The notes below the pieces were generated by a model, which worked only from the letters and a program-made list of their open reading frames with translations, did no database searches and was not told where the DNA came from. Made by a program: the position numbers and the translations under genes. A DNA stretch of 64,000 bases from Streptomyces sp. VRA16 Mangrove soil (GTDB lineage: Bacteria; Actinomycetota; Actinomycetes; Streptomycetales; Streptomycetaceae), in the NCBI RefSeq assembly GCF_017377775.1, contig NZ_JAFVLN010000002.1:434001-498000 (forward strand), read 5' to 3'. Below, piece after piece: positions 40,706 to 56,262 of the stretch (within the stretch, counting starts at the first letter, position 1; each line of letters begins with the position of its first letter).

Positions 40706-41557
40706 CTACGCGCCCGCGCCGCCGGCCTCCTGGCTCCGGGCCGTCACGAGTCCCGACTCGTAGGCGAACACGACGAGTTGGGCCCGGTCGCGGGCGCCGA
40801 GCTTCGTCATCGCGCGGCTCACGTGCGTCTTGGCGGTGAACGGGCTGATCACCATGTGCGCGGCGATCTCCTCGTTGGTGAGGCCGCGCGCCGCCAGCGC
40901 GGTGACCTCGCGCTCGCGCGGGGTGAGGCACTCCAGTCCTGGCGCGGTCGCCCGGTCCGGCGGCCGGGCGACGAACTCGCCGATGAGGCGGCGGGTGACG
41001 GACGGCGACAGGAGGGCGTCACCGCGCGCGACGACGACGATGCCGGCGAGCAGGTCCACCGGCTCGCTGTCCTTGAGCAGAAAGCCGGACGCTCCCGCGC
41101 GCAGCGCCTCGAAGACGTACGCGTCGAAGGCGTAGTTGGTGAGCATGACGACGCGTACGTCGTTGAGGACGGGGTCGGCGGCGATCCGCCGGGTCGCCTC
41201 GATGCCGCTCTCGCCGGGCATCTGCACGTCCATGAGCACGACGTCCGGCGCCAGGTCGCGGACGAGCGCGACCCCGGCGGCGGCGTCGCCCGCCTCCCCG
41301 ACGACCTCGATGCCTTCCTCGGCGTCGAGCAGCGCCCGGAACCCGGCCCGCATGAGCGCCTGGTCGTCGACGAGCACGACACGGATCGCGGGGCGGGCCA
41401 GGGGGCCGGTCACGGGACCGGTCGCCGGGCCGGTCGCCGGGCCGGTCACGGGACCGGTCGCAGGGCCGCTCGCAGGGCCGGTCGCGGAACCGGTCACGGG
41501 ACCGGTCGCAGGACCGTTCGCAGGACCGGTCACGGGGCGGGCCACCGGGCCGGTCAC
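40706..41557 (-). CDS. NarL/LuxR-family response regulator with repeat-encoded N-terminus
   Basis: Receiver domain: [20 protein letters not shown], phospho-acceptor Asp in [14 protein letters not shown], and [11 protein letters not shown]-binding domain: [20 protein letters not shown] then [20 protein letters not shown]. If translation starts at GTG 41557, overlapping the kinase stop by 4 bp, the protein has 283 residues and begins with about 52 residues of TGPV/TGPA-type tetrapeptides encoded by a 12-bp repeat. Several repeat units contain in-frame GTG codons; the last of them (41413) would give a normal-length regulator. The true start cannot be decided from sequence. Partner of the kinase at 41554. 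Confidence 0.88.
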
Positions 41558-41558
41558 G
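41403..41558 (-). repeat. Thirteen imperfect 12-bp tandem repeats inside the response-regulator start
   Basis: On the plus strand the units read like GGGCCGGTCACG, with variants GGACCGGTCGCA and GGGCCGGTCGCC; on the coding strand they give tetrapeptides of the T-G-P-V/A type. All units are 12 bp, so copy-number change keeps the frame. The array begins at the very GTG that overlaps the kinase stop. Confidence 0.9.
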
Positions 41559-42759
41559 GGGCCGCGCCCATCGCCGCGTCCGCCACCGGCGTCCGGGGCG
41601 CGGACGGCGACTCCTCCCGCACCGCCACCGGGCCTCCCGTCAGCGGCAGCACCGCCCGTATCTCGAAGCCTCCCCCGGCGCGCGGCCCGGCGGTCAGGGT
41701 GCCGCCCACGGCGTCGACCCGCTCGCGCATGCCGGTCAGGCCGGTGCCCTCCGTGGGCGGCCGGTCGGGATCCGCGGCCCCCTCGTCGGTGACGCGGACC
41801 GTCAACTCGGCTTCCCCGTATGTCAGTTGCACCTCGGTCGGCGTCGCGGCGCCCGCATGCCGTGCCACGTTCGTCAGCGCCTCCTGGACGATCCGGTAGA
41901 CCGTGCGGTCGAGCGCCGGCGCCAGGGGCCGCTCCCGCCCGCCGACGGTGAGCGTGACAGGGATGCCCGCCGACCGGGCGCGCTCGGCGAGCAGCGCCGG
42001 GGTGCCGGTGGGCTCGTCGGTGCGCAGCACGTCGAGCGTGGCCCGCAGCTCGCGCATCGCCTCGCCGCTCGCCTCCTGGATGGCGAGCAGCGCGGCCGGT
42101 ATCTCCTCACCGCGCTTGCGGGCGAGGTGCACCGCCACTCCGGCCTGCAGCTTGACGATCGAGATGCTGTGGGTGAGGGAGTCGTGCAACTCCCGCGCGA
42201 TGCGCAGGCGTTCCTCCCCCGCCCGGCGCAGCGCCGCCTCCTCGCGGGTGCGCTCGGCCTCCAGGGCGCGCTGTTCCGTCTGGTGCAGATACGCCCGCCA
42301 GTTCTTGTCGGCGACACCGGTGACGACCGCGCACAGGAACCAACCGGCGAGCAGCATTCCCCGCCCGGCCGCCCCGTCGGCGGCGAGCGCGTCCCGCACG
42401 ACGAACACGGCGAGGAAGGCTCCGGCGACGGCCCCGCCCAGGCCGCGGTGTTCCGCGCGGGACGCGGTGTGCACGGCCGCGATCACCGGCAGCGCGGCCA
42501 GCGGACCGGGGTGCGCGTGCAGCACGTACGCCGTGGTCAGGGCGGTCGAGACGAACAGAACGGCACGCGGCGCCCGCCGGTACCCGGCCAGGGCCGCCGC
42601 CGCCCCCGCCATCAGGGCGTAGTCCACCGGCGCGGCGCCGTCGCCGAGCGCCGCGCCCAGGATCACCACGGCCGCGATCACGACGGCCAGTGCCGCGTCG
42701 GCCGCGTAGGTGCGCAAGGAGCGGGCGACGGCCCCGCCCGCGCTCTCCTCGTCCGCCAC
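41554..42759 (-). CDS. NarL-type sensor histidine kinase
   Basis: A 401-residue membrane kinase. The N-terminal half has several hydrophobic helices and little extracytoplasmic domain. The HisKA_3 block [20 protein letters not shown] carries the phospho-acceptor His, and the ATPase N-box is [13 protein letters not shown], with [17 protein letters not shown] as the G-box. GTG 42759 has GGGGG 8 nt upstream; an in-frame TTG at 42834 would add 25 residues. It overlaps the response regulator by 4 bp. The shared control region with the AhpD-like gene holds two palindromes. Confidence 0.9.
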
Positions 42760-42869
42760 GTCCGTGCCCCCTGTCCCGCCGCCACGTTCCCGATCCCCCG
42801 CCCTCTCACGAAGGCTAGCCCCCGCCACCGACAACGGCCTCCGTCGCGAGGACGGCGGCGGCGCCCGTT

Positions 42870-42887
42870 CTACTCCCCCGGGAGTAG
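42870..42887. promoter_or_regulatory. Palindrome in the two-component/AhpD divergent region
   Basis: CTACTCCC-CC-GGGAGTAG has exact 8-bp arms. It lies about 110 bp from the kinase start and about 100 bp from the AhpD-like start, a good position for a binding site of the response regulator. The latter is inference. Confidence 0.45.
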
Positions 42888-42912
42888 GCGCAGTTGGGCC
42901 CGGCCGTACGAC

Positions 42913-42927
42913 GCCCCGGACCGGGGC
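42913..42927. promoter_or_regulatory. Second palindrome in the same divergent region
   Basis: GCCCCGG-A-CCGGGGC, 7-bp arms, 25 bp from the first palindrome and 57 bp before the AhpD-like ATG. It could be an operator half, a hairpin in the leader, or chance in GC-rich DNA. Confidence 0.3.
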
Positions 42928-42983
42928 AGGGGCCGACTCTGGGCGGTGTCCGCACCACCACGTGTCCGACCCAGGGAGCCCCC

Positions 42984-44003
42984 ATGCCAGGCCCGTACCG
43001 GTACACCAGCCCGCCCGCGCCGAAGTCCGCCACCGGCACCGCCGCCGCGGTCTACGCGCAGGCCGCCACCGACTTCGGCATCCCGAAGCCCTCGACGCTG
43101 ATCGTCCTGTCGTCGGCGCCCGAACTCCTCGCGCCCGCCTGGGCGTTGCTGCGCGAGTCGCTGATCGCGGGCAGCGGGTCGCGCGGCGACCGCGAGCTGG
43201 TCGCCGCCGGGGTCTCGCAGGCCAACCGGTGTCCGTTCTGCGTGGACGCGCACGCCGTCCTGCTGCACGCGCACGGCGACCACGACCTCGGCGAGGCGGT
43301 GGCCCGTGACACGACGCCGGGCGACGAGCGGGCGGCGCGGCTGCTGGAGTGGGGGCGGGTCACCCGCGTCCCCGGCGCGCCCGCGCTCACCCCGCCACCG
43401 TTCGCCCGCGCCGACCTGCCCTCGCACCTCGGCACCGCGTTCGCCTTCCACTTCATCAACCGGATCGTGTCCGCCCTGCTGACCGAGAACCTGCTGCCCG
43501 CCGGCGCCCAGCGCTGGCCGTCGGTCCGGGCCCTCGCGGGCCGCAGCGTCGCCCGTGTCGTCCGGGCCGCGCACACCCCCGGCACCTCCCTGACCCTGCT
43601 CGACTCCCCGGGCCGCGGCCCCGACTGGGCGGCAGGCACCCCGGTCGGGGCCGCCTACGACGCGCTGCGCACCGCCGCCACGACGGGCGGCAGGCTCCTC
43701 GACGACGCCGACCTCGACCTCGTCCTGGAAACCGTCGCGGCCTGGGACGGCACGCATCCGCCCACGGTGTGGCCCGCGCTGCCGGACCGCGCCGACCGGC
43801 CGGGCGCGCGCCTGGCCCTGCTCGCCGCGCTCGCGCCGTACCGGATCACGGACGAGGACGTCGCCGCCTGGCGGGTGCCGCCGTACACCGACCACTGCCT
43901 GGTCCATCTGATCGCGTACGGGGCGTTCGCCGCCGTGGACCGGATCGAGTCGGCCCTGCCCGCTTCGCTCAGCGACCTGACCTCCGACCGGGAGACCCGA
44001 TGA
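42984..44003 (+). CDS. AhpD-like/carboxymuconolactone decarboxylase-family protein
   Basis: A 339-residue protein. The AhpD redox motif appears as NRCPFCVDAHAVLLHAHG, with Cys-x-x-Cys and the downstream His, in the first half; the second half shows a related helical pattern (EDVAAWRVPPYTDHCLVHLI) without a CxxC. Such proteins are thiol-based peroxidases or reductases. ATG 42984 follows AGGGAG. It overlaps the following methyltransferase by 4 bp and faces the two-component system, which may regulate it. Confidence 0.8.
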   Translation: MPGPYRYTSPPAPKSATGTAAAVYAQAATDFGIPKPSTLIVLSSAPELLAPAWALLRESLIAGSGSRGDRELVAAGVSQANRCPFCVDAHAVLLHAHGDHDLGEAVARDTTPGDERAARLLEWGRVTRVPGAPALTPPPFARADLPSHLGTAFAFHFINRIVSALLTENLLPAGAQRWPSVRALAGRSVARVVRAAHTPGTSLTLLDSPGRGPDWAAGTPVGAAYDALRTAATTGGRLLDDADLDLVLETVAAWDGTHPPTVWPALPDRADRPGARLALLAALAPYRITDEDVAAWRVPPYTDHCLVHLIAYGAFAAVDRIESALPASLSDLTSDRETR

Positions 44004-44878
44004 CCGGCACCTCCACCGTCAATCACCGGCAGGCCCACGCCTGGAACGGTCCGCTCGGCCGGCACTGGGCCGACCACCACCGGCGCTTCGACACGATGCT
44101 GGGCGAGGCCGACGAGGCGCTGTTCGCGGCCGCCGCGATCGGGCCCGGCGACCGGGTGCTCGACATCGGCTGCGGCGCGGGCGCGACGACCCGGGCCGCG
44201 GCCCTGCTCGCGGCGCCGGGGCACGCGGTCGGCGTGGACATCTCCGCGCCGCTCGTGGACCGGGCACGCGCGCGTACCGCGCAGGAGGGGGTGCCGAACG
44301 CGGCGTACCAGCTGGGCGACGTGCAGGCGCACCCGTTCCCGCCCGGCGTCTTCGACGTCGCGATCAGCCGCGGCGGGGTGATGTTCTTCGAGGACCATGT
44401 CACGGCGTTCGCGAACGTGGCGCGGGCGCTGCGCCCGCGCGGCCGGCTCGCCTTCGTCTGCCCGCGCCGCCCGGACCCCGACTCGGAGGAGGTCACGGCG
44501 CTGTCCCTGTTCGCCCGGCGCCTCGCGGAGGGCAGTGCGTACCGCGCCGGGCAGGGCCCTGCCGCCCCGGACCCCGACGCACAGGCCGCGCACACCGCGA
44601 TGGCGTCGCTGTCCGAGCCGTACCGGGTCCACGCGGTGCTGCACCGCTCGTTCACCGACATCGCCGTCAACCCCGTCGACATCCACACCCACTGGGGTGA
44701 TTCGCCCGCCGACGCCGTCGACTTCCTGCTGTCGCGGGCGCCCGCGCGGAGCGTGCCGTCCGCGACGCGCGCCCTCCTGGAGGACACGCTCCGGCCGTAC
44801 GCGACCCCGCGCGGGGTGCGAACCCGTGCGGGCGTGTGGCTCGTGACGGCTCTGCGCCGGGACGATGCCGGTGCGTGA
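44000..44878 (+). CDS. Class I SAM-dependent methyltransferase
   Basis: A 292-residue methyltransferase. Motif I is RVLDIGCGAGATTRAAALL, the acidic ribose-binding residue is in AVGVDISAPL, and motif IV-VI are FDVAISRGGVMFFEDH and ALRPRGRLAFVCPRR. It resembles UbiE/Methyltransf_25-type small-molecule enzymes; the substrate is unknown. The ATGA overlap with the AhpD-like gene shows co-translation. Confidence 0.82.
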   Translation: MTGTSTVNHRQAHAWNGPLGRHWADHHRRFDTMLGEADEALFAAAAIGPGDRVLDIGCGAGATTRAAALLAAPGHAVGVDISAPLVDRARARTAQEGVPNAAYQLGDVQAHPFPPGVFDVAISRGGVMFFEDHVTAFANVARALRPRGRLAFVCPRRPDPDSEEVTALSLFARRLAEGSAYRAGQGPAAPDPDAQAAHTAMASLSEPYRVHAVLHRSFTDIAVNPVDIHTHWGDSPADAVDFLLSRAPARSVPSATRALLEDTLRPYATPRGVRTRAGVWLVTALRRDDAGA

Positions 44879-44973
44879 TGCGGAGGTGACAGAAGTGGCG
44901 GTATCGGTGGCGCAGGAAGTCGTGTGACACTGACCTCCCCCACCCACCCCACCTGACGTAAGGGACGTACGCC

Positions 44974-45633
44974 GTGCGTTCTCTCCCGCTTCCGGTCACC
45001 CTCACCGTCCGGCTCCTTCCCGTCGCCGTCCTCGCCTGCGTCGGCTGGGCCTGGTCCACCGGGCCGATGTCCGAGCCCGCCGCGAAGGACAAGGGCGATG
45101 CGGCGCCTCAGTCGTCGGCGCCGCAGAGCCCCAGCGCGAGCGTCGCGTCGAAGACGTACCCGAAGCCGCCCGAGCCGTGCGGCACGGTCACGGCCAAGAC
45201 GGTGAAGGCGCTCGTCCCGGACGCGAAGACGGCGGGCAAGGAGCTGTCGGCCACGGACGAATCGGTTCGCCGCGGCTGCTCGTGGAGCGCGCTGAAGGGG
45301 TACGACTACCGCTGGCTCGACGTCTCCTTCGAGGTGAAGAACTCCGACGCCCTGGCGAAGCAGTCGTACAAGGACGGCGGCGCCGACGACTCCAAGGCCA
45401 GCCCGCTCGCCGGGCTCGGCGACGAGGCCCGGGTCACGAGCTCGCTCACCACCAAGGACAAACAGGACACCCGCGAGTCCGTGGTGACGGTCCGCAAGGC
45501 CAACGTCCTGGTGACCGTCACCTACAACGGCAGCGACTTCGAGTCCAAGGGCGCGCCGTCCAACGACACGGTGATCAAGGGCGCCCGGCAGGCGGCCGGG
45601 GACGCGGTGGCCGCACTGGGCTCCGCCGACTGA
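44974..45633 (+). CDS. Secreted or lipid-anchored protein, DUF3558-like
   Basis: A 219-residue exported protein. A hydrophobic N-terminus with VLAC at residues 19-22 could be a weak lipobox. A Ser/Pro/Ala-rich linker follows, then a globular domain with Cys at PEPCGTVTAK and RRGCSWSAL, a pattern I associate with actinobacterial DUF3558 lipoproteins. Function unknown. GTG 44974 has AAGGGAC upstream. It stands alone before the nitrate reductase. Confidence 0.7.
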   Translation: MRSLPLPVTLTVRLLPVAVLACVGWAWSTGPMSEPAAKDKGDAAPQSSAPQSPSASVASKTYPKPPEPCGTVTAKTVKALVPDAKTAGKELSATDESVRRGCSWSALKGYDYRWLDVSFEVKNSDALAKQSYKDGGADDSKASPLAGLGDEARVTSSLTTKDKQDTRESVVTVRKANVLVTVTYNGSDFESKGAPSNDTVIKGARQAAGDAVAALGSAD

Positions 45634-45683
45634 CCCCGCCGGGACATCTCTCTCACCGCGCACCGGCCCCGGGTGTGCGCCCG

Positions 45684-45724
45684 GTGTAACCCTCGCCGGT
45701 CCGGCCGCGAGACTCCTGTGTAAC
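45684..45724 (+). promoter_or_regulatory. Direct repeat GTGTAAC upstream of the nitrate reductase
   Basis: GTGTAAC occurs at 45684-45690 and 45718-45724, 34 bp apart and 75-115 bp before the gene. GTAAC fits the a-site half of actinobacterial GlnR boxes (gTnAc), but the GAAAC half at +6 is missing, so this is only a weak nitrogen-control candidate. Confidence 0.2.
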
Positions 45725-45797
45725 GGGCATTTCCTACGGTCGTTCGCAGTACAGCCGAGCACATCGGCACGGAACGATCGTGAAGGGGCGAGTGCCT

Positions 45798-48700
45798 GTG
45801 GCCGCGCCTGAATCGCCGGACCCCAGCCTGGAGAAGGTGCGGACGGTCTGCTCGTACTGCGGCGTGGGCTGCGGTCTCGTCCTCGACGTCGGGCAGGGCC
45901 CCGACGGACGGCGTACGGTCCTCAAGGCGTCCGGCGACAAGGAGCACCCGGCGAACTTCGGCCGGCTGTGCACGAAGGGCGCGACGACCGCCGCCATGCT
46001 GTCCGCCCCGGGCCGGCTCACCACCGCGCTCGTGCGTTCCGAGCGCGGTGGTGAGCCCGAGCCCGCCACCGTGGACAGCGCGGTCCGGCACACGGCGCGC
46101 CGGCTGCGCGAGATCGTCGACGAGCACGGTCCCGACGCGGTCGCCTTCTACGTCTCAGGGCAGATGGGCCTGGAGGCCCAGTACCTGGCGAACAAGCTCG
46201 CCAAGGGGTTCGTGCGCACGAACCAGATCGAGTCCAACTCCCGGCTGTGCATGGCCAGTGCGGGCACCGGCTACAAGCTGTCGCTCGGCGCGGACGGCCC
46301 GCCCGGCTCGTACCAGGACCTCGACCGGGCGGACGTCTTCCTGGTCATCGGCTCCAACATGGCCGACTGCCACCCGATCCTGTTCCTGCGGATGATGGAG
46401 CGGGTGAGGTCGGGCGGCGCGAAGCTGATCGTCGTCGACCCGCGGCGCACCGCGACGGCCGCGAAAGCCGACCTGTTCCTGCAGATCGCGCCGGGCACCG
46501 ACCTGGCGCTGCTCAACGGCATCCTGCACCTCCTGCACGAGAACGGGCACACGGACCCGCAGTTCATCGCCCAGCACACGGAGGGCTGGGCGGAGTTGGT
46601 GCCGCTCCTCGCCGACTACCCGCCGGCGGCGGTGGCCGCGCTCACCGGGCTCGCCGAGGACGACATCCGGGAGGCAGCGCGGCTGATCGGCGAGGCGGGC
46701 GAGTGGACGAGCTGCTGGACGATGGGGCTCAACCAGTCCACGCACGGCACCTGGAACACGAACGCGCTGGTGAATCTGCACCTGGCGACGGGCGCGATCT
46801 GCCGTCCCGGCAGCGGCCCGTTCTCCCTGACCGGGCAGCCCAACGCGATGGGCGGCCGCGAAATGGGCTACATGGGGCCGGGGCTGCCCGGTCAGCGGTC
46901 CGTGCTCGTCGACGCGGAGCGGGAGTTCGTCGAGGACCTCTGGGAGGTCGAACGCGGCACCCTGCGCGCGGACGGCGTCGGCAGAGGCACCGTCGAGATG
47001 TTCCGCAAGATGGCCGCCGGCGAGATCAAGGCGTGCTGGATCATCTGCACCAACCCGGTGGCGTCCGTCGCGAACCGCAGGACGGTCATCGAGGGTCTGG
47101 AGGCCGCCGAACTCGTCGTCACCCAGGACGCGTTCGCCGACACGGAGACGAACGCGTACGCCGATGTGGTGCTGCCCGGCGCGCTGTGGACCGAGGCCGA
47201 GGGCGTGCTCGTCAACAGCGAACGCAATCTGACGCTGGCCTCACCGGCCGTCGCGCCGCCGGGCGAGGCGCGGGCGGACTGGCGGCTGATCGCTGCGGTG
47301 GCGCGGGAGATGGGGTACGAGGAGGGGTTCTCGTACACGAGCGCCGAGGAGATCTTCGAGGAGATCAAGCGGGCCTGGAACCCGAAGACGGGCTGGGACC
47401 TGCGCGGGGTGAGCTACGAGCGGCTGCGGGCGACGCCCGTGCAGTGGCCGGCCGCGCGGCCCGACGGACCCGACCGCAACCCGATCCGGTACGTCGACGA
47501 GGCGGGAGTTCCCACCTTCCCGACGGCGAGCGGGCGCGCGGTCTTCCATGCCCGTCCGCACGTCCCCGCGGCCGAGATGCCGGACGACGACTACCCGTTC
47601 ACGCTGAACACGGGCCGGCTCCCGCACCAGTGGCACACGCTCACCAAGACCGCCAAGGTGCCGAAGCTCAACCGGCTGAACCCGGAGCCGTTCGTCGAAC
47701 TGCACCCGCTCGACGCACAGCGGCTCGGCATCGGGGACGGGGACTCGGTGGAGGTCGCCTCGCGGCGCGGCCGTGCCGTGCTGCCCGCAGTCGTCACCGA
47801 CCGCGTACGACAGGGGTGCTGCTTCGCGCCGTTCCACTGGAACGACCTGTTCGGCGAGTATCTGAGCCTCAACGCGGTCACGAACGACGCCGTCGATCCG
47901 CTCTCCTTCCAGCCCGAGTTCAAGGTGTGCGCGGTGTCGCTGACGAAGGTGTCGACGACGGTGACGGTCCGGACACCGGCGCCCGCGTCCGAGCTCGAGC
48001 CCGCGCAGGCTCCCCAACTGGCCGTTCCCGCAGACCCGTTCGGACTCGCGGCCACCCGGCCGCCGGTGCTCTCCGCGCTGGAGCGGCAGTACCTCGTGGG
48101 TTTCCTTGCAGGCATTCCGGCGGGGGCGCCGGGCATGCCGGTGCTGCCGCCGTCGGCGCCGTTCAGCCCCGAGCACGCGCTGTGGGTGAACGGGGTGCTC
48201 GCCGGGATGTACTCGCGCGCCCCGCAGGAGGCGCCGCTGTCGGATTCCCGGCCGCCGGTCGTGGTCCTGTGGGCCTCGCAGACCGGCAACGCCGAGGAGG
48301 TCGCGGCGGACGCCGTGCGCCGGCTCACCGCGGCCGGGCACGCCGCCTCGCTCGTCGGCATGGACGAGGCCGATCTCGGCGCGCTGCCGGCCGGCGCCGA
48401 TCTGCTCCTGATCACCAGCACGTTCGGCGACGGGGACGCCCCGGACAACGGTGCGGGCCTGTGGGAGACGCTGGCGGCGCCCGACGTCCCGCGTCTCGAC
48501 GGGCGGCGCTACGCCGTGCTCGCCCTCGGCGACTCCTCGTACGACGACTTCTGCGGGCACGGCCGCCGCCTCGACCGGCGCCTGGACGAACTGGGCGCCT
48601 CGCGTCTCGCGCCGCGCACGGACTGCGAACCGGACTACGAGGACGCCGCGCGAGCCTGGCTCGACCAGGTGCTCACGGCGCTCTGCGACCCGCAGACACC

Positions 48701-49871
48701 ATCGGTTCCGGCTCCGCCCTCGACGGTGACCCCCGCGCCCCGGTCGGCCAAGCCCGCCCCCGCGGTCGCCCGGCTCACCGGCAACCGCGCGCTGAGCGGG
48801 GCCGGTTCGGGCAAGGACGTGCGCCGGTTCACGTTCGACACCCGGGAGAGCGAGACGCCGTTCACGTACGAGGCGGGCGACGCGCTGGCCGTCCGACCGC
48901 TCAACTCCCGTGACCTGGTGGCGGAATGGCTCACGGTGACGGCCCTCGACGCCCACGCCGGGGTCACCCTGGACGGCATCGGGGAGCTCCCCCTCGAAGA
49001 GGCCCTGCTCCGCCACCTGGACATCACCCGGACGACCCCGGACCTGCTCCGCTTCGTGACCGAACGAGCACGCGACCCAAGGGAGTTGAGAAAACTCCTG
49101 CGTCCCGACAACAAGGGCGAACTCGCCAAGTGGTCCTGGGGCCGGCAGGCCGTCGACGTCGTCGCCGAGCACGGCGTGAAGGCCGACGCGCAGGAGTGGG
49201 CCGAGGTGCTGGGGCGGCTCCAGCCGCGCCTGTACTCCATATCGTCGAGCCCGCTCAGCGACCCGCACCAGGTGTCGCTCACCGTCTCCGTCGTCCGCTA
49301 CGAGAACGTCAACGGGCTGCCGCGGCAAGGGGTTTGCTCGCCGTTCCTCGCCGACGCCGAACCGGGCACGGCGGTACCGGTGCACGTCAGGGCGGCCCCG
49401 AACTTCCGGCCCCCCGCCGACTCCGCGACCCCGATGGTGATGGTCGGTCCCGGCACCGGCGTGGCCCCTTTCATCGGCTTCCTGGAACAGCGCCGCCTGC
49501 TCGGGCACACCGGCCCCAACTGGCTCTTCTTCGGCGAGCAGCACCGCGCGACCGACTTCTACTACGAGGACGAACTCGCGGGGCTCGTCGCGGACGGGAC
49601 CCTGACCCGCCTGGACACGGCGTTCTCCCGCGACCAGCGCGCGAAGATCTACGTACAGGACCGGATGCGCGAGCACGGTCCGCAGGTGTGGTCGTGGCTC
49701 CAGGACGGGGCCCGCTTCTACGTCTGCGGTGACGCGTCCCGGATGGCGAAGGACGTCGACCGGGCACTGCGCGACATCGCGGTGGCGCACGGCGGCCTGG
49801 ACGAGGCGGGGGCTGCGACGTACGTGAAGCAGCTCGCGGCGGACAAGCGGTACGTGCGCGACGTGTACTGA
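45798..49871 (+). CDS. Fused assimilatory nitrate reductase and NADPH flavoreductase
   Basis: A 1357-residue multidomain enzyme. Residues 1-720 are a NapA/NarB-type molybdopterin oxidoreductase, with a 4Fe-4S site at Cys18, Cys21, Cys25 and Cys58, and Cys151 in [12 protein letters not shown] as the expected Mo ligand. At about residue 823 a flavodoxin domain starts ([13 protein letters not shown]). It is followed by a sulfite-reductase-flavoprotein-type FAD/NADPH module: [10 protein letters not shown] near 1143, [18 protein letters not shown] near 1214, the final YVCGDASRM and aromatic C-terminus YVRDVY. One chain could thus pass electrons from NADPH through FAD and FMN to Mo, reducing nitrate to nitrite. 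GTG 45798 has AAGGGG 9 nt upstream; GTGs at 45780 and 45792 are alternatives. Confidence 0.9.
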
Positions 49872-49880
49872 CCGGTCGCG

Positions 49881-49909
49881 TCAACTGGGCTGCCCGCACA
49901 GCCCGTTGA
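49881..49909 (+). terminator. Hairpin behind the nitrate reductase gene
   Basis: TCAAC-T-GGGCTG pairs with CAGCCCGTTGA around the loop CCCGCA, with one bulged T; it starts 10 bp after the stop. Confidence 0.65.
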
Positions 49910-49980
49910 GATCATCCGCCGTTAGGGTGAGGCGGGACGACCACCGACGGACGCTCCAGAAGCAGGAGAGGGACGGCCCA

Positions 49981-50805
49981 GTGACCAGCAGCAGCGGCGA
50001 CGCACACGCGGACAGCCTCACCGACCGAATCGACACCAGCCGGCCGCACACGGCCCGGATCTGGAACTACTGGCTCGGCGGCAAGGACAACTACCCCGTC
50101 GACGAGGCCGCGGGCCGGCAGATCCGTGAACTGCACCCGGGCATCGTCGACTACGCGCAGGCCGACCGCGCGTTCCTGGGCCGCGCGGTCCACCATCTGA
50201 CGGCCGACGTCGGCATACGCCAGTTCCTCGACATCGGTACCGGCCTGCCCACGGCGGACAACACGCACGAGGTCGCCCAGCGGATCGCCCCCGAGACACG
50301 GATCGTGTACGTCGACAACGACCCCATGGTGCTGCGGCACGCCCAGGCGCTGCTCACCAGCAGCCCGGAGGGCAGCACCGACTACATCGACGCCGATCTG
50401 CGCGACGTCGACCACATCCTCGAACTCGCCGCGAAATCACTGGACTTCACACAGCCGGTGGCGTTGATGCTGCTCGGCGTGGTGATCTTCGTCGGCGACG
50501 ACGAGGACCCCTACGGCCTGGTGCGCCGTCTCCTCGACGCGCTCCCCTCCGGCAGTCACCTGGTGCTCTCGCACACCATCACCCGCGCCGACATGCCGGA
50601 CGTCGACGAGGCGGTGGCGTTCTGGAACGCGAACGGCACGCCGAAGCTGAACCAGCGCACCCCCGACCAGGTCACCCGCTTCTTCGACGGCCTGGACCTG
50701 CTCTCCCCCGGCGTCGTCTCCTGCTCCCGCTGGCGCCCCGGGGCCCCGGCCGGCGACGAGCCGGCCGAGGTCGCGATGTTCGGCGGGGTCGGCCGCAAGC
50801 CCTGA
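49981..50805 (+). CDS. SAM-dependent methyltransferase, DUF574/Methyltransf_19 type
   Basis: A 274-residue protein. RPHTARIWNYWLGGKDNYPV near the N-terminus and QFLDIGTGLPTADNTHEVAQ are the signature blocks of the large actinobacterial DUF574 methyltransferase family; VYVDNDPMVLRHAQALL holds the SAM ribose-binding acid. Substrate unknown. GTG 49981 follows AGGAGAGGG. It stands alone, with a terminator on each side. Confidence 0.87.
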   Translation: MTSSSGDAHADSLTDRIDTSRPHTARIWNYWLGGKDNYPVDEAAGRQIRELHPGIVDYAQADRAFLGRAVHHLTADVGIRQFLDIGTGLPTADNTHEVAQRIAPETRIVYVDNDPMVLRHAQALLTSSPEGSTDYIDADLRDVDHILELAAKSLDFTQPVALMLLGVVIFVGDDEDPYGLVRRLLDALPSGSHLVLSHTITRADMPDVDEAVAFWNANGTPKLNQRTPDQVTRFFDGLDLLSPGVVSCSRWRPGAPAGDEPAEVAMFGGVGRKP

Positions 50806-50810
50806 GGCCC

Positions 50811-50842
50811 GGCGCCCGGGTGCCGTGAGGCACCCCGGCGCC
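50811..50842. terminator. Bidirectional terminator
   Basis: Fourteen-bp arms with one mismatch around GTGA fill the 43-bp gap between the convergent methyltransferase and the second livF. Confidence 0.8.
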
Positions 50843-50848
50843 GCGCAC

Positions 50849-51565
50849 TCAGTCCTCGCCGAGATACGCCTTGCGCACGCTGTCGTCGTCGAGCAGGGTG
50901 CGTCCGCTGCCGGAGAGGATGATGCGGCCCGTCTCCATGACGTAGGCGTGGTCGGCGAGGGCGAGGGCCGCGCGGGCGTTCTGCTCGACGAGGAGGATCG
51001 TGGTGCCGCCCGCCTTGAGCTCGGCGACGGTCGCCATGATCTTCTTCATCATGATCGGTGACAGACCCATGGAGGGCTCGTCCAGCATCAGCAGCTTGGG
51101 CCGGCACATCAGCGCCCGGCCCATCGCGAGCATCTGCTGCTCGCCGCCGGAGAGGGTGCCCGCCGCCTGGGTGCGGCGCTCCCGCAGCCGGGGGAAGAGC
51201 GTGTACGCGCGTTCCGTGTCATCGGCGACACCGTCGGCGTCCCTGCGCAGAAACGCCCCCAGCAGCAGGTTCTCCTCGACGGTCAGCCGCGGGAAGATGT
51301 GCCGCCCCTCGGGCGAGTGGGCGAGCCCGAGCGCGACGATCCGGTGCGCCGGGACGCCGTCGAGGTCCTGCCCGGCGAACCGGACCCGGCCCGCCGCCGC
51401 GGGGAGCAGACCGCTGAGGGTGTGCAGGGTGGTGGTCTTGCCCGCGCCGTTGGTGCCGATGAGGGTGACCACCTGCCCCTCCTCGACGCGGAAGGAGATG
51501 CCCTTGACGGCCTCCACCTTCCCGTAGGCGACGCGGAGTTCGTCGACATCCAGCAGGGCGCTCAT
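50849..51565 (-). CDS. livF: Branched-chain amino-acid type ABC ATPase LivF (second system)
   Basis: A 238-residue ATPase. Walker A GTNGAGKTTTLHTL, signature LSGGEQQMLAMGRALM, Walker B LLMLDEPSMGLSP, H-loop LLVEQNARAAL. ATG 51565 (MSALLDVDELRVAYG) overlaps livG by 4 bp. Last gene of the operon. Confidence 0.93.
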   Translation of the reverse strand: MSALLDVDELRVAYGKVEAVKGISFRVEEGQVVTLIGTNGAGKTTTLHTLSGLLPAAAGRVRFAGQDLDGVPAHRIVALGLAHSPEGRHIFPRLTVEENLLLGAFLRRDADGVADDTERAYTLFPRLRERRTQAAGTLSGGEQQMLAMGRALMCRPKLLMLDEPSMGLSPIMMKKIMATVAELKAGGTTILLVEQNARAALALADHAYVMETGRIILSGSGRTLLDDDSVRKAYLGED

Positions 51566-52347
51566 ACCGGCGTCTCCTCGTCGTCGGGTGCGCCGAGGTA
51601 CGCCTCGACGACGCGTTCGTCGGCCTGTACGTCGCCGGGGGCGCCCTCGACGAGCTTGGCGCCCTGCACCAGGACCGCGACGCGGTCGCAGAGGTTCATG
51701 ATGAAGCGCATGTCGTGCTCGATGACGAGGACGGCGACGCCGCGCGCCCGCACGGCGTGCACCAACTCCTCGGCCTCGCGCGTCTCCTGCGGGTTCATCC
51801 CGGCGGTCGGCTCGTCGAGGAGCAGCAGCCGGGGGTCGCTGGCGAGGGCGCGGGCGATCTCCAGGCGGCGCTGGGCGCCGTAGGAGAGGTTGCGGGCGAG
51901 GTGCCGCTCCCGGTCGGCGAGGCCGACGAAGTCGAGCAACTCCCGTGCCCGCGCCCGCGATTCGCGTTCCTCCCGGCGGTAGCGGGGCCCCCGTCCGAGC
52001 GCGGCGAGCAGCCCGGCGCGGGTGCGGGTGTGGCGGCCCACGATCACGTTCTCCAGGGCCGACATGTTGGCGAACAGGCGGATGTTCTGGAAGGTGCGGG
52101 CCACCCCGGCCCGGGTCACCTTCGCGGGCCGGGGCGGCAGCGGGGCGCCCTCGAACAGGACGGCACCCTCCGTGGGGACGTACAGGCCGGTGAGGCAGTT
52201 GAAGAAGGTGGTCTTGCCGGCGCCGTTGGGGCCGATCAGACCGACGATCTCGCCCTCGGCGACGGTGAGGTCCACCTGGTCGACGGCGGTGAGGCCGCCG
52301 AACCGCATGGTGACACCGCGCGCCTCCAGCAAGGGAGTTGGGCTCAT
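51562..52347 (-). CDS. livG: Branched-chain amino-acid type ABC ATPase LivG (second system)
   Basis: A 261-residue ATPase. Walker A GPNGAGKTTFFNCL, liv-type signature LSYGAQRRLEIARALA, Walker B LLLLDEPTAGMNP, and H-loop LVIEHDMRFIMNL. The ARTFQNIRLF Q-loop is typical. ATG 52347 overlaps the livM stop (ATGA); the frame upstream is open but not coding. Confidence 0.93.
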   Translation of the reverse strand: MSPTPLLEARGVTMRFGGLTAVDQVDLTVAEGEIVGLIGPNGAGKTTFFNCLTGLYVPTEGAVLFEGAPLPPRPAKVTRAGVARTFQNIRLFANMSALENVIVGRHTRTRAGLLAALGRGPRYRREERESRARARELLDFVGLADRERHLARNLSYGAQRRLEIARALASDPRLLLLDEPTAGMNPQETREAEELVHAVRARGVAVLVIEHDMRFIMNLCDRVAVLVQGAKLVEGAPGDVQADERVVEAYLGAPDDEETPV

Positions 52348-54032
52348 GCCGGAATCTTCGCAATCTGGGTGGTGGAGGTGTCGACGGGCTCGTGGAACTC
52401 CAGCTGGTGCTTGCGGTCGGGCACGATCCCCTCGGGCCTGAAGCGCATCATCAGGATCAGGGCGAGACCGAACAGCATCATCTGGTATTGGCTGAAGAAC
52501 GCGAACTTGGCGGGGAGGAGATAGAGCAGGGCCGCGCCGACGAGCGGCCCCGACACGGTGCCCATGCCGCCGAGGACGACCGCGGCCAGCAGGAACGCCG
52601 AGTTGGGCGGCGCGGTGTCCGCGAACTTGTAGTTCTCGGGGACGGCGTTGGTCTGCAGATGCGCCATGACCGTGCCCGCGAGCCCGGCGAGCGAGGCGCC
52701 GAGCCCGAAGGCGAGCAGTTTGAAGCGGAAACCCTCGATGCCCATCGCGGTGGCCGCCGTCTCGTCCTCGCGCAGCGCGATCCAGGCCCGCCCGATCCGG
52801 GAGTCGCCCGCACGCGCGTACACGAACACGATGACCGCGATGACGGCGAGGAGGAGCAGGTAGTAGTTGGCGAACCGGCCGAAGGTGACCCCGAGCAGCT
52901 CGTGCGGCGCACCGAAGTCGAAGCCGAGGATCTTCAGGTTCGGCACCGAGTTGATGCCGTTGGGCCCGTTCGTCAGGGAGGGACCCGAGGTGCCGTCGAG
53001 GTTGTTGACGGTGATCCGGAAGATCTCGCCGAAGCCGAGGGTGACGATGGCGAGGTAGTCGCCGTGCAGCCGCAGCGTCGGCGCGCCGATCACGAGACCG
53101 GCGACGAGGGAGATCGCCATGCCCAGCAGGGCGGTCGCCCAGAACGGCCAGGGGTCCATGTGCAGCGTGGAGAACGTCGAGCCGGAGACGAGCGCCGCGG
53201 TGTACGCCCCGGTGCCGAGGAACGCGACGTACCCGAGGTCGAGGAGCCCGACCAGGCCGACGACGATGTTCAGGCCGAGCGCGACGGCCGCGAACACGAG
53301 GATGTTGTCGGCGATGGCCGTGTACTGGTCGCCGGTCTGGGTGAACGGGAAGACCAGCGCGGCGACGAGGGCGGCCACGGAGACGGCGACCCGGTTGCGG
53401 GCGTTGATCCGGCTGAGCCGGGCGGCCAGTCCGCTCGCCGCCAGGGCGCGGGCGCCGAGCCCCGCCGCGGGCAGGAACGCGAGGAACTCCTCGGGCGAGC
53501 CGGTCGTGATGCCGTACGCGAGGACGTACATGGCGACGAGGAACACCACGGTGATCAGGGCGACTTCGAGGACGCGCGGCATCCGGGCGTCGGGCGCCGG
53601 GTCGTCCGCGGTGTCGTCCGGCAGGCCGTGTGCCCCGGCGGCGAGCAGCGCGGTGCCGACGAGCGCCGGCCAGCCGCCGGGTTCGACGTTGACCACTCCG
53701 CCGAGGGTGACGGCGATCGCGCCGACGGTGATCCAGGTCGAGGTGAGCGCGGCGAGCGAGGCCGCGCGCAGGGCGCGGGCGGCGCCGCGGGGCGCGAGCC
53801 GCGGCACGCCGAGAGCGGCGGCCGTGAAGTACGCGGCGAGCAACCCCGTGGCGAGGGTGACGAGTTGGCTGCCTCCCGGGTAGCCGGTGACGGTCAGGTT
53901 GCCGGGGAAACGCCTGGTCCACGTCCAGGCCAGGAACGGTGAGACGAGGGTGAGGACGACACCGGTGACGACGAGCGGCCTGGCCGCCCGTGCGGGGACG
54001 GCCGGGATCCTGAGCGGTTTCACGGCGATCAC
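52344..54032 (-). CDS. livM: Branched-chain amino-acid type ABC permease LivM, long form (second system)
   Basis: A 562-residue membrane permease, about 190 residues longer than the LivM of the first system. The extra N-terminal part has several hydrophobic segments (RPLVVTGVVLTLVSPFLAWT) separated by Arg-rich loops, and resembles the extension seen in some long LivM proteins. The LivM core follows, with GLNIVVGLVGLLDLGYVAFL and VVLGGMGTVSGPLVGAALL. GTG start overlapping livH by 4 bp. Confidence 0.9.
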   Translation of the reverse strand: MIAVKPLRIPAVPARAARPLVVTGVVLTLVSPFLAWTWTRRFPGNLTVTGYPGGSQLVTLATGLLAAYFTAAALGVPRLAPRGAARALRAASLAALTSTWITVGAIAVTLGGVVNVEPGGWPALVGTALLAAGAHGLPDDTADDPAPDARMPRVLEVALITVVFLVAMYVLAYGITTGSPEEFLAFLPAAGLGARALAASGLAARLSRINARNRVAVSVAALVAALVFPFTQTGDQYTAIADNILVFAAVALGLNIVVGLVGLLDLGYVAFLGTGAYTAALVSGSTFSTLHMDPWPFWATALLGMAISLVAGLVIGAPTLRLHGDYLAIVTLGFGEIFRITVNNLDGTSGPSLTNGPNGINSVPNLKILGFDFGAPHELLGVTFGRFANYYLLLLAVIAVIVFVYARAGDSRIGRAWIALREDETAATAMGIEGFRFKLLAFGLGASLAGLAGTVMAHLQTNAVPENYKFADTAPPNSAFLLAAVVLGGMGTVSGPLVGAALLYLLPAKFAFFSQYQMMLFGLALILMMRFRPEGIVPDRKHQLEFHEPVDTSTTQIAKIPA

Positions 54033-54991
54033 GCCCTGTCCGTGGCGAGGCGCTCACCGAGCAGACCTTGTGGTCTGATCAGCAGCACCAGAATGAGGAT
54101 GACGAAGGCCCAGACGTCCTTCCAGGCGGAGCCGCCGAAGGTGTGCAGGGCCGGCAGGTGCGGGAGCAGCCCGGAGGCGAGGGACTCGGCGACGCCGAGC
54201 ACGACGCCGCCGAGCATGGCGCCCTGGATGTGCCCGATGCCGCCGAGCACGGCCGCGGTGAAGCCCTTCAGGCCCGCGATGAAGCCCATGTTGTACGAGA
54301 TGGTGCCGAGCCTGAGCCCCTGGGTGAGGCAGGCGACGGCGGCGAGCACGGCGCCGAGGGCGAAGGCGATGACGATGACGCGGTCGGTGTCGATGCCCAT
54401 GAGCCGGGCGGTCCTGGGGTCCTGCGCGGTGGCCTGCATGGCGCGCCCGGTGCGGGTGCGGCCGACGAACCAGCTCAGCCCGACCATCGCCGCCGCGGCG
54501 AGGACGAGCGTGAGGATCGCCGCGTACGAGACGGTCACCCCGCCCAAGTGGAGTGGTGTGCCCGGGAGTTGGGGGAAGGGGACGGGTGCGGTGACGCCGA
54601 CGGACTTGCCCGGCAGGGTGAAGAAGTTGAACACGACCTGCTGGAGGAAGAGGGAGAGACCGATGGCGGTGATGAGCGGGGCCAGGCGGGGCGCGCCGCG
54701 CAGCGGCCGGTAGGCGAACCGCTCGGCGGCGACCGCCGCGGTCACGGAGACCAGGACCGCGGCGATCAGCAGGACGGGCAGGGCGATCCAGAGGTTCACC
54801 TGGTGCAGGCCCGGCACCCACGCGTACACGAAGAGGGCGCCGAACCCGCCGAGCATGAAGATCTCACCGTGGGCGAAGTTGATGATCTGGAGGATGCCGT
54901 AGACCATCGTGTAGCCGACCGCGATGAGGCCGTACATCGCGCCGAGGACGAGTCCGTCGGTGAGGAGCTGGAAGAGGTCGGTGGTGCTCAC
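54029..54991 (-). CDS. livH: Branched-chain amino-acid type ABC permease LivH (second system)
   Basis: A 320-residue permease. LTDGLVLGAMYGLIAVGYTM and QIINFAHGEIFMLGGF at the N-terminus and AAVLGGIGHIQGAMLGGVVL near the C-terminus are the LivH marks. GTG 54991 (VSTTDLFQLL) overlaps the livK stop by 4 bp. Confidence 0.93.
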   Translation of the reverse strand: MSTTDLFQLLTDGLVLGAMYGLIAVGYTMVYGILQIINFAHGEIFMLGGFGALFVYAWVPGLHQVNLWIALPVLLIAAVLVSVTAAVAAERFAYRPLRGAPRLAPLITAIGLSLFLQQVVFNFFTLPGKSVGVTAPVPFPQLPGTPLHLGGVTVSYAAILTLVLAAAAMVGLSWFVGRTRTGRAMQATAQDPRTARLMGIDTDRVIVIAFALGAVLAAVACLTQGLRLGTISYNMGFIAGLKGFTAAVLGGIGHIQGAMLGGVVLGVAESLASGLLPHLPALHTFGGSAWKDVWAFVILILVLLIRPQGLLGERLATDRA

Positions 54992-56262
54992 TTGACGGTG
55001 ACCACCTTGACGCCGTCCGCCCACTTGCCGTTCTTGACGCAGTTGATGCTGATGACCGGGTTGGTGCTGTCGCCGTACTCGTTGAAGCCGATGGTGCCGG
55101 TGGCGCCCTCGAAGGAGACCTTGCCCATGGCCGCGACGACCTTCGGGCGCAGCCGGGCGACGTCGCCGACCTTGCCGCCGTCGGCCTTCACGGCCGCGGC
55201 GACGGCCTTGATCAGCGCGGTGGTCGCGTCGTAGGTGTAGATGCCGAAGACGCCGTAGGTCTGCTGGTAGCCGGCCGCCTCGTAGGCCGAGACGAACGAC
55301 TTCGACGTGGTCATCTTCTCGATGGGGGCGCCGTCGGAGTGGGTGCAGGTGCCGTCGGCCGCCTTGGCACCGGCCAGGGCGATCAGCTGGTCGTCCTTGA
55401 CGGCGTCGCCACCGCCCATCGGACCGTCGAACCCGGCGGCGACGAGCTGCTTCTTCAGCGCGGCCGCCTGCGGGTACTCGCCGCCGTAGAACACCCCTTG
55501 TGCGCCTGAGGACTTGACGCTGTTGACGACGGCGGAGTAGTCGGACTCGTCCGGGTTGACGGACTGGTGGATGACGACCTTGCCGCCGAGCTTCTTGTAC
55601 GCCGTCGTGAAGTCGTCGACGATCTGGCTGCCGTAGGTCTTCTTGTCGTCGACCGTGGCGATCTTCTTGATCTTCAGGTCGTTGTAGAGGTACGAGGCGG
55701 TGACGGGCACGGCGACGTCGTCGGTCGAGATCGTCCGGAAGTAGTTGTCGTACTGCCGCTCGGGGTGGGCCGTGTAGTCGGCGCCCTTGGTGAGCGTGGC
55801 GGCGGTGTTCGCGCCGGAGATCTGGACCATCCGCGCGTCGTGCAGGGTGGACTGCATGGCGGCGGTGACCGAGGAGTTGTAGGCGCCGACGACGCCGATG
55901 ACGGAGGTGTCGGAGACGAACGCGGCCGCGTTCTGCTGGCCGATGTTCGGGGTGCCCTGGTCGTCCCTGGGCTGCAGCTTGAAGGTGACGCCGGGCACCG
56001 CCTTCTCCTTGTTGGCCTGCTTCACGGCCAGTTCGGCGGAGTTGCGCATGCCGAGGCCGACGGCGGCCAGGTCCTTGGACAGGGGCGAGTCGTAGCCGAT
56101 GGTGATGGTGGTCGAGCCGCCGCCCGACGCACTGTCGTCGCCGTCGCCCTCGTCGCGCGATCCGCACGCGGTGAGGGTGAGGGCGAGCGAACAGGCGATC
56201 AAGGGCGCCGTCCGCACAAAGAGCCTGGTACGGGTGGTGCGGGACGTGGTGGAGCCGAGCAT
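54988..56262 (-). CDS. livK: Branched-chain amino-acid type ABC substrate-binding lipoprotein (second system)
   Basis: A 424-residue type I binding protein. The long signal peptide ends in the lipobox LTAC (Cys33), then a Gly/Ser/Asp linker and TITIGYDSPLSKDLAAVGLG. KLQPRDDQGTPNIGQQNAAA follows the LivK pattern. First gene here, whereas it is last in the other system. ATG 56262 has GGGGAGGAC upstream. The ligand is not deducible from sequence. Confidence 0.92.
   Translation of the reverse strand: MLGSTTSRTTRTRLFVRTAPLIACSLALTLTACGSRDEGDGDDSASGGGSTTITIGYDSPLSKDLAAVGLGMRNSAELAVKQANKEKAVPGVTFKLQPRDDQGTPNIGQQNAAAFVSDTSVIGVVGAYNSSVTAAMQSTLHDARMVQISGANTAATLTKGADYTAHPERQYDNYFRTISTDDVAVPVTASYLYNDLKIKKIATVDDKKTYGSQIVDDFTTAYKKLGGKVVIHQSVNPDESDYSAVVNSVKSSGAQGVFYGGEYPQAAALKKQLVAAGFDGPMGGGDAVKDDQLIALAGAKAADGTCTHSDGAPIEKMTTSKSFVSAYEAAGYQQTYGVFGIYTYDATTALIKAVAAAVKADGGKVGDVARLRPKVVAAMGKVSFEGATGTIGFNEYGDSTNPVISINCVKNGKWADGVKVVTVK

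Follow-up and report, generated by a model that had tools for sequence, protein, structure and literature searches.

How could a Streptomyces strain reduce nitrate with a single polypeptide that draws its own electrons from reduced nicotinamide adenine dinucleotide phosphate (NADPH), and what ties the gene for it to a pathway whose other members lie elsewhere? The question is raised by a forward-strand gene in a 64,000-nucleotide stretch of Streptomyces sp. VRA16 Mangrove soil DNA (contig NZ_JAFVLN010000002.1, positions 434,001 to 498,000; 'the window' throughout). Judged from its sequence the gene is nasN, of the already known NasN family (NADPH-dependent diflavin monomeric assimilatory nitrate reductase), and this copy is an ordinary Streptomyces-type member of an enzyme already characterised in mycobacteria. 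We consider it very probable that the product is a cytoplasmic one-chain NADPH assimilatory nitrate reductase, with NirB and NarK partners encoded elsewhere and putative control by NnaR and GlnR. Several things are read directly from the DNA: the frame and its domains, ligand residues and NADPH residues, the grouping in one family clade, boxes of the NnaR type, and candidate narK, nnaR and nirB genes. An initial annotation had proposed a self-contained NADPH-linked nitrate reductase, which family evidence, a Cys-Met molybdenum (Mo) site and invariant NADPH residues support; the novelty it suggested does not stand, fusion and electron path both being published (NasN; NADPH, flavin adenine dinucleotide (FAD), flavin mononucleotide (FMN), [4Fe-4S], Mo).

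Architecture of the fused enzyme

The region from 45780 to 49871 on the forward strand is a single unbroken open frame of 1363 codons counted from the first GTG, or 1357 residues when begun at GTG 45798. The latter is most likely the start of nasN, and is preferred because the start codons of relatives align there: among 80 relatives the aligned codon is GTG in 34, ATG in nine and a gap in seven, and the eight commonest entries at the codon aligned with 45780 include no start codon. These relatives come from at least 594 pattern stretches in named genomes, 587 of them encoding some relative; the best 80 were kept, so distant or unfused relatives are under-represented. Residue numbers below are those of the 1363-residue frame unless stated, and are 6 lower when counted from GTG 45798. 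As the annotation claimed, one frame carries a 4Fe-4S/molybdopterin half and an FMN/FAD/NADPH half, with each Pfam domain above its curated cut-off (Table 1), and its cysteine positions 18, 21, 25, 58 and 151 are correct when counted from GTG 45798; these are residues 24, 27, 31, 64 and 157 of the longer frame, and all five are invariant in the 81 aligned sequences.

Table 1. Coordinates of nasN, its domains and its putative promoter elements in the window
Feature	Position	Strand	Remarks
NnaR-type box CTCACC-N16-TGTGCG	45652..45679	+	0 mismatches to loosened pattern; 118 base pairs (bp) before GTG 45798
GlnR-like site GAGAC-N6-GTAAC (weak)	45709..45724	+	1 mismatch to GTNAC-N6-GTNAC
nasN coding sequence	45798..49871	+	open frame starts 45780
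4Fe-4S domain PF04879 (Molybdop_Fe4S4, residues 18-70)	45831..45989	+	above Pfam cut-off; Cys 24/27/31/64 invariant 81/81
Molybdopterin oxidoreductase PF00384 (residues 79-509)	46014..47306	+	above Pfam cut-off; Mo-ligand Cys157-Met158
Molydop_binding PF01568, molybdopterin dinucleotide-binding (residues 607-718)	47598..47933	+	above Pfam cut-off
Linker, two short predicted helices	47943..48263	+	model; stretch around second helix resembles CysJ N-terminal segment
Flavodoxin_1 PF00258, FMN-binding (residues 829-960)	48264..48659	+	above Pfam cut-off; SQTG (833-836) invariant 81/81
FAD_binding_1 PF00667 (residues 993-1189)	48756..49346	+	above Pfam cut-off; R1150, Y1152, S1153 invariant 81/81
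NAD_binding_1 PF00175, NADPH-binding (residues 1221-1327)	49440..49760	+	above Pfam cut-off

The catalytic half is of the nitrate reductase type. By sequence as well as by fold its closest PDB matches are Desulfovibrio desulfuricans nitrate reductase entries of the 2nap/2jio/2v3v group, and the fold matches listed (the 50 best out of 315 with E up to 0.001) all fall on the Mo half. The Mo site reads RLCM in all 24 fused rows of our alignment, and Cys-Met is also present in 10 other nitrate-reductase-type rows; of the three formate-dehydrogenase-type rows, one has Cys-His and two have His preceded by an in-frame stop, presumably selenocysteine (Sec). The NasC model (NF047855) scores 486.8 against a cut-off of 1100. 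NapA, the periplasmic nitrate reductase (TIGR01706), was rejected as an identity for the protein, with a score of 380.2 against a cut-off of 930.55 and no twin-arginine signal found on inspection by eye of the short stretch preceding the first Cys.

In the reductase half S1283, R1284, K1289, Y1291 and the C-terminal Tyr1363, the last downstream of the PF00175 domain, are invariant in all 81 sequences, and we take these to be the NADPH residues of the cytochrome P450 reductase (CPR) type; likewise SQTG and R1150/Y1152/S1153 are presumably FMN and FAD motifs with roles as in the CPR family. A strict set of five motif patterns is matched in full by 69 of the 80 relatives, the remaining 11 each missing one. 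An AlphaFold2 model of residues 18-968 (951 residues), built on an alignment of 45 of the 81 sequences, has a mean predicted local distance difference test (pLDDT) value of 77.3 and a predicted template modelling score of 0.62, with pLDDT below 50 in parts of the linker and some Mo-half loops. The linker helices are predicted at 749-760 and 780-794 of the model, and comparison of the linker with Klebsiella aerogenes CysJ gave a 24-residue match (E 7e-5, for a single comparison).

Family clade and the published NasN

The best segments of the 80 relatives are 61-79% identical to the window protein, the nearest named ones being from Streptomyces; others come from Kitasatospora, Yinghuangia, Actinocorallia, Actinomadura, Actinoplanes, Catellatospora, Frankia, Pseudofrankia, Kutzneria, Actinokineospora, Pseudonocardia, Rhodococcus, Cellulomonas and Mycobacterium. 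In a tree of the Mo half (37 rows) the 24 fused rows, all that were included, form one clade (100/100 bootstrap/Shimodaira-Hasegawa-like approximate likelihood ratio), and the three formate-dehydrogenase rows are separate (100/100). The reductase-half tree (32 rows) again unites the same 24 in a single clade (96/95) and keeps them separate from two CysJ rows, the genes of which adjoin cysI. A single fusion event would thus account for both halves. Three Mycobacterium rows lie within the fused clade of both trees, as do rows from Paraburkholderia, Novosphingobium and Acetobacter plasmids; the order outside the clade is unsure because of a long-branch warning, which covers the host's own NasC, Hymenobacter and others.

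The characterised member is MSMEG_4206 of Mycolicibacterium smegmatis, and the literature on it is cited here from excerpts. As reported in citing papers, Tan 2020 described this enzyme, NasN, as NADPH-dependent and monomeric, with electrons passing from NADPH through FAD-FMN to molybdopterin guanine dinucleotide (MGD)-[4Fe-4S]. The excerpts of PMC7816997, which follow Tan 2020 in naming it NasN, monomeric and NADPH-reliant, describe MSMEG_4206 as the one assimilatory nitrate reductase that M. smegmatis possesses, and as a member of the GlnR regulon; among the genes tested only its deletion significantly lowered aerobic nitrate assimilation. It is called NADPH-dependent and diflavin, and said to have once been misannotated as a pseudogene owing to a sequencing error, in both PMC7816997 and PMC11162112. 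The latter also treats Mycobacterium abscessus NasN (MAB_2438) and its NnaR box, PMC6277429 places msmeg_4206 among the transcripts changed upon NnaR loss, and GlnR is reviewed in PMC10704036.

The two mycobacterial enzymes and the window protein are alike in being one chain with the same domain order, in length (1351 residues reported in PMC11162112, 1357 here) and, as a prediction for the window protein, in nitrogen-responsive control and in acting as the NADPH-dependent monomer described for the mycobacteria. They differ in genus and in linker length, which varies even between the two mycobacteria (PMC11162112), and the window genome also holds a separate NasC gene. Among open-licence papers we found no report of a Streptomyces NasN with its NnaR box.

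Alternative readings

The highest single NCBIfam score of the chain is that of Fdh-alpha (TIGR01591, 530.4 bits), so that a formate dehydrogenase, or another NADP(H)-using molybdenum oxidoreductase acting on something other than nitrate, has to be considered. We judge this very unlikely, as the score lies below the curated cut-off of 666.25, the Mo site is Cys-Met as opposed to the Cys-His or stop(Sec)-His of the formate-dehydrogenase-type rows, the Mo half groups with nitrate reductases apart from those rows, and the neighbours of the gene in relatives include nirB, nirD and nitrate transporters. That the reductase half serves sulfite reduction, making the enzyme a sulfite reductase component, would fit its CysJ-type domain order and the name 'bifunctional nitrate reductase/sulfite reductase flavoprotein subunit alpha' under which NCBI lists full-length relatives in Acetobacter, Mycobacterium, Tsukamurella and Paraburkholderia. 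No sign of the sulfite reduction that this name implies was found for the window protein. This alternative is extremely unlikely: the CysJ score (TIGR01931) is 516.3 against a cut-off of 668.15, the reductase half branches apart from the CysJ rows beside cysI, and Pfam finds no siroheme domain in the chain, nor did the scan of 10 neighbouring frames in the window show a siroheme protein. CysJ shares with NasN its FMN-FAD-NADPH module and the CysJ-like N-terminal segment, and differs in donating to a separate siroheme protein, CysI.

A last possibility is that two genes were joined through a sequencing or assembly error, a case brought to mind by the history of MSMEG_4206 as a supposed pseudogene and by the two-gene arrangement that exists in Methylocystis. 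Its probability is vanishingly small, since in every one of the 80 named relatives fetched the two halves are read as a single open frame exceeding 1250 codons; this rules out the frameshift or two-gene artefact raised by the initial annotation, and the rival is already refuted.

Dispersed pathway genes and shared promoter boxes

As the annotation had stated, no nitrite reductase or nitrate transporter gene adjoins nasN; none is present among the 10 neighbouring frames scanned, from 40706 to 56262. The host genome (9.75 Mb, 41 contigs, 72% G+C; the window lies on contig C22) has nirB-type genes at C12:79136 and C9:321. On C12 there are a separate 705-residue NasC, a 419-residue FAD reductase, which we label nasB by position and domains, and an 880-residue NirB. 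The second nirB-type frame (L093:63-4673, 999 residues) is at the start of contig C9, followed by a major facilitator superfamily (MFS) transporter. A NarK-type transporter (C18:14230-15564) was found by search with a NarK protein, an MFS_1 family search of the genome giving 143 matches and being uninformative; it is 48% identical to one near nasN on a Mycobacterium ulcerans plasmid. Adjoining it at C18:13244 is a HEM4-domain protein. NnaR combines a uroporphyrinogen-III synthase domain with a DNA-binding domain (PMC6277429, excerpt), and by its HEM4 part this protein fits that description and is an NnaR candidate.

Similar separation is seen in relatives. In Streptacidiphilus nnaR, nirB, nirD and narK all lie some 6 kb or less from nasN, and this locus is the sole one of the 80 with the set inside the fetched flank, so that nasN stands apart in the other 79, as here, so far as the flanks show. 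In Paraburkholderia the genes are in the row MFS transporter-nirB-nirD-nasN, and in Acetobacter nirB adjoins nasN.

The mycobacterial NnaR motif, CTCAC[A/C]-N16-[T/G]GTGAG, lies near a GlnR site (excerpts of PMC11162112 and PMC6277429). We loosened this to CTCACM-N16-KGTGMG. At up to 2 mismatches to a fixed version of the box, it is found in 61 of 81 upstream regions compared with 13 of 405 single-base shuffles; the GlnR-like site, of which we take the consensus to be GTNAC-N6-GTNAC, is found at up to 1 mismatch in 59 of 81 compared with 29 of 405. Ten aligned upstream sequences, that of the window and those of nine Streptomyces, all retain CTCAC and TGTG. In the host, narK-nnaR is preceded by a perfect match to the loosened pattern; nasC and nasB-nirB have one-mismatch boxes 68 and 67 bp upstream, respectively. 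Of 3000 stretches of 150 bp drawn at random from the window and three further parts of the genome, true boxes included, 16 had a match with at most 1 mismatch, 4 of them with none. The apparent isolation of nasN is thus explained by partner genes that sit elsewhere in the genome behind similar promoter boxes; the shared element ties a gene without nitrate-pathway neighbours to its pathway.

By analogy with the mycobacterial relative and from knowledge of the family, the cofactor loading, electron path, NADPH dependence, cytoplasmic location and regulation of the Streptomyces enzyme can be proposed. NADPH would pass a hydride to FAD, and single electrons would move from FAD to FMN, to the N-terminal [4Fe-4S] cluster and on to a Mo-bis-MGD held by Cys151 (counted from GTG 45798), where nitrate would be reduced to nitrite. 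A NirB-type nitrite reductase encoded elsewhere in the genome would complete the reduction to ammonium, a NarK-type carrier would move nitrate, and NnaR and GlnR, acting at nasN's own promoter, would switch the gene on along with the pathway.

Several observations weigh against so complete a picture. MSMEG_4206 is outside both the tree set and the alignment, in which the Mycobacterium copies compared are 62-63% identical to the window NasN. NirD was not confirmed in the host, where the candidate, a 119-residue frame after nirB, has no Pfam match. The window GlnR-like site is weak, the 81 upstream regions are from related species, and the shuffles preserve base content only. Genome-wide the loosened NnaR pattern has 19 matches (8 forward, 11 reverse) compared with 10 for a reversed control, so only sites at relevant promoters carry meaning. 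NnaR sites are moreover reported absent upstream of M. smegmatis nasN (PMC11162112, excerpt), in contrast to the window gene, and NnaR control is therefore not general in the family.

It seems that the host has two assimilatory nitrate reductases built on different plans. We tentatively suggest that nasN may be a second nitrate reductase working beside the NasC/NasB-NirB set and preceded by an NnaR box of the same type, the two enzymes having different electron donors; if so, they perhaps suit different levels of nitrate or oxygen. The docking of the FMN domain on the 4Fe-4S face, and the reason for keeping two nitrate reductases of unlike design, are modest questions and tractable ones.

Distribution

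The genome survey covered 198 genomes of the phylum: 8 of the genus (including the host, G000), 9 others of the class and 181 remaining. The rows of 6 of the 8 genomes of the genus (G000, G023, G128, G161, G182, G193) fit a full fusion in one open frame, and 4 of the 9 others of the class (G038, G050, G074, G096) have the fusion. G107, of the same genus, has a 62-64% match to the reductase half only (residues 701-1363; L108:1501-3585) with an internal stop, an apparent remnant of nasN, and G171, also of the genus, shows no fusion among the matches listed. Among those listed for the other 181 (up to 3 candidates scored per genome) none extends into the reductase half. A second Mo-half match, at 39-40%, is listed for five of the six fused genus genomes (G000, G023, G128, G182, G193); the G000 protein, which was checked, is of the Cys-Met type.

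A plasmid collection contributes 36 records in which a single place spans 80% or more of the query. On a Klebsiella pneumoniae plasmid (L138:3929-8139) the fusion is broken over two frames, with no listed gene covering it, and several Acetobacter pasteurianus copies are split in two, an IS5 transposase underlying the match.

Related designs

The separate NasC/NasA enzymes have the same type of catalytic half, about 38% identical in the host's own copy, and differ in their electron supply, which is either another protein or a FAD-NADH/[2Fe-2S] module fused to them. The fused version (L109:1381-5040, L110:1489-5115, L140:3007-6522), a NasC-type half joined to NasB-type Pyr_redox_2, Rubredoxin_C and BFD [2Fe-2S] domains, occurs in two other actinobacterial families and Hymenobacter and is a different self-contained design. 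A Methylocystis plasmid (L095:1755-7788) has adjacent genes for a NirA family protein, a diflavin reductase and a nitrate reductase with a BFD domain, which would be a two-gene version of the same chemistry. In the trees the Mo half of this version falls with Sinorhizobium and Methylobacterium rows, away from the fusions; the reductase comes out beside the fusions only weakly (88/77, on a long branch).

Stand-alone diflavin reductases closest to the NasN module are 42-46% identical to it, compared with about 39% for CysJ. On Shinella, Neorhizobium and Ketogulonicigenium plasmids (L143:450-7695, L144:435-7689, L145:504-7641) the gene immediately preceding such a reductase encodes a large glutamate synthase chain of about 1,810-1,830 residues (domains checked in two of the three), an arrangement that suggests a glutamate synthase fed by a CysJ-like reductase.

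Neighbouring genes

A conserved neighbourhood was considered and rejected. The eight window neighbours sought in the flanks of the 80 relatives, some of them short, were found in 0, 1, 0, 1, 2, 9, 0 and 0; the nine are ATP-binding cassette (ABC) ATPase matches, and the six shown are 30-34% identical. Just upstream of nasN (44974-45633) is a small protein with a sub-cut-off DUF3558 match (27.4 against 34.1 bits), and on the M. ulcerans plasmid a lipoprotein gene (LppP/LprE) is upstream of nasN on the opposite strand. Directly after nasN (49906-50805) is an S-adenosylmethionine-dependent methyltransferase (PF04672), a similar frame being found near nasN in 2 of the 80 relatives, and the reverse strand at 50849-56262 carries branched-chain amino-acid-type ABC transporter genes (ATPase, permease and binding protein).

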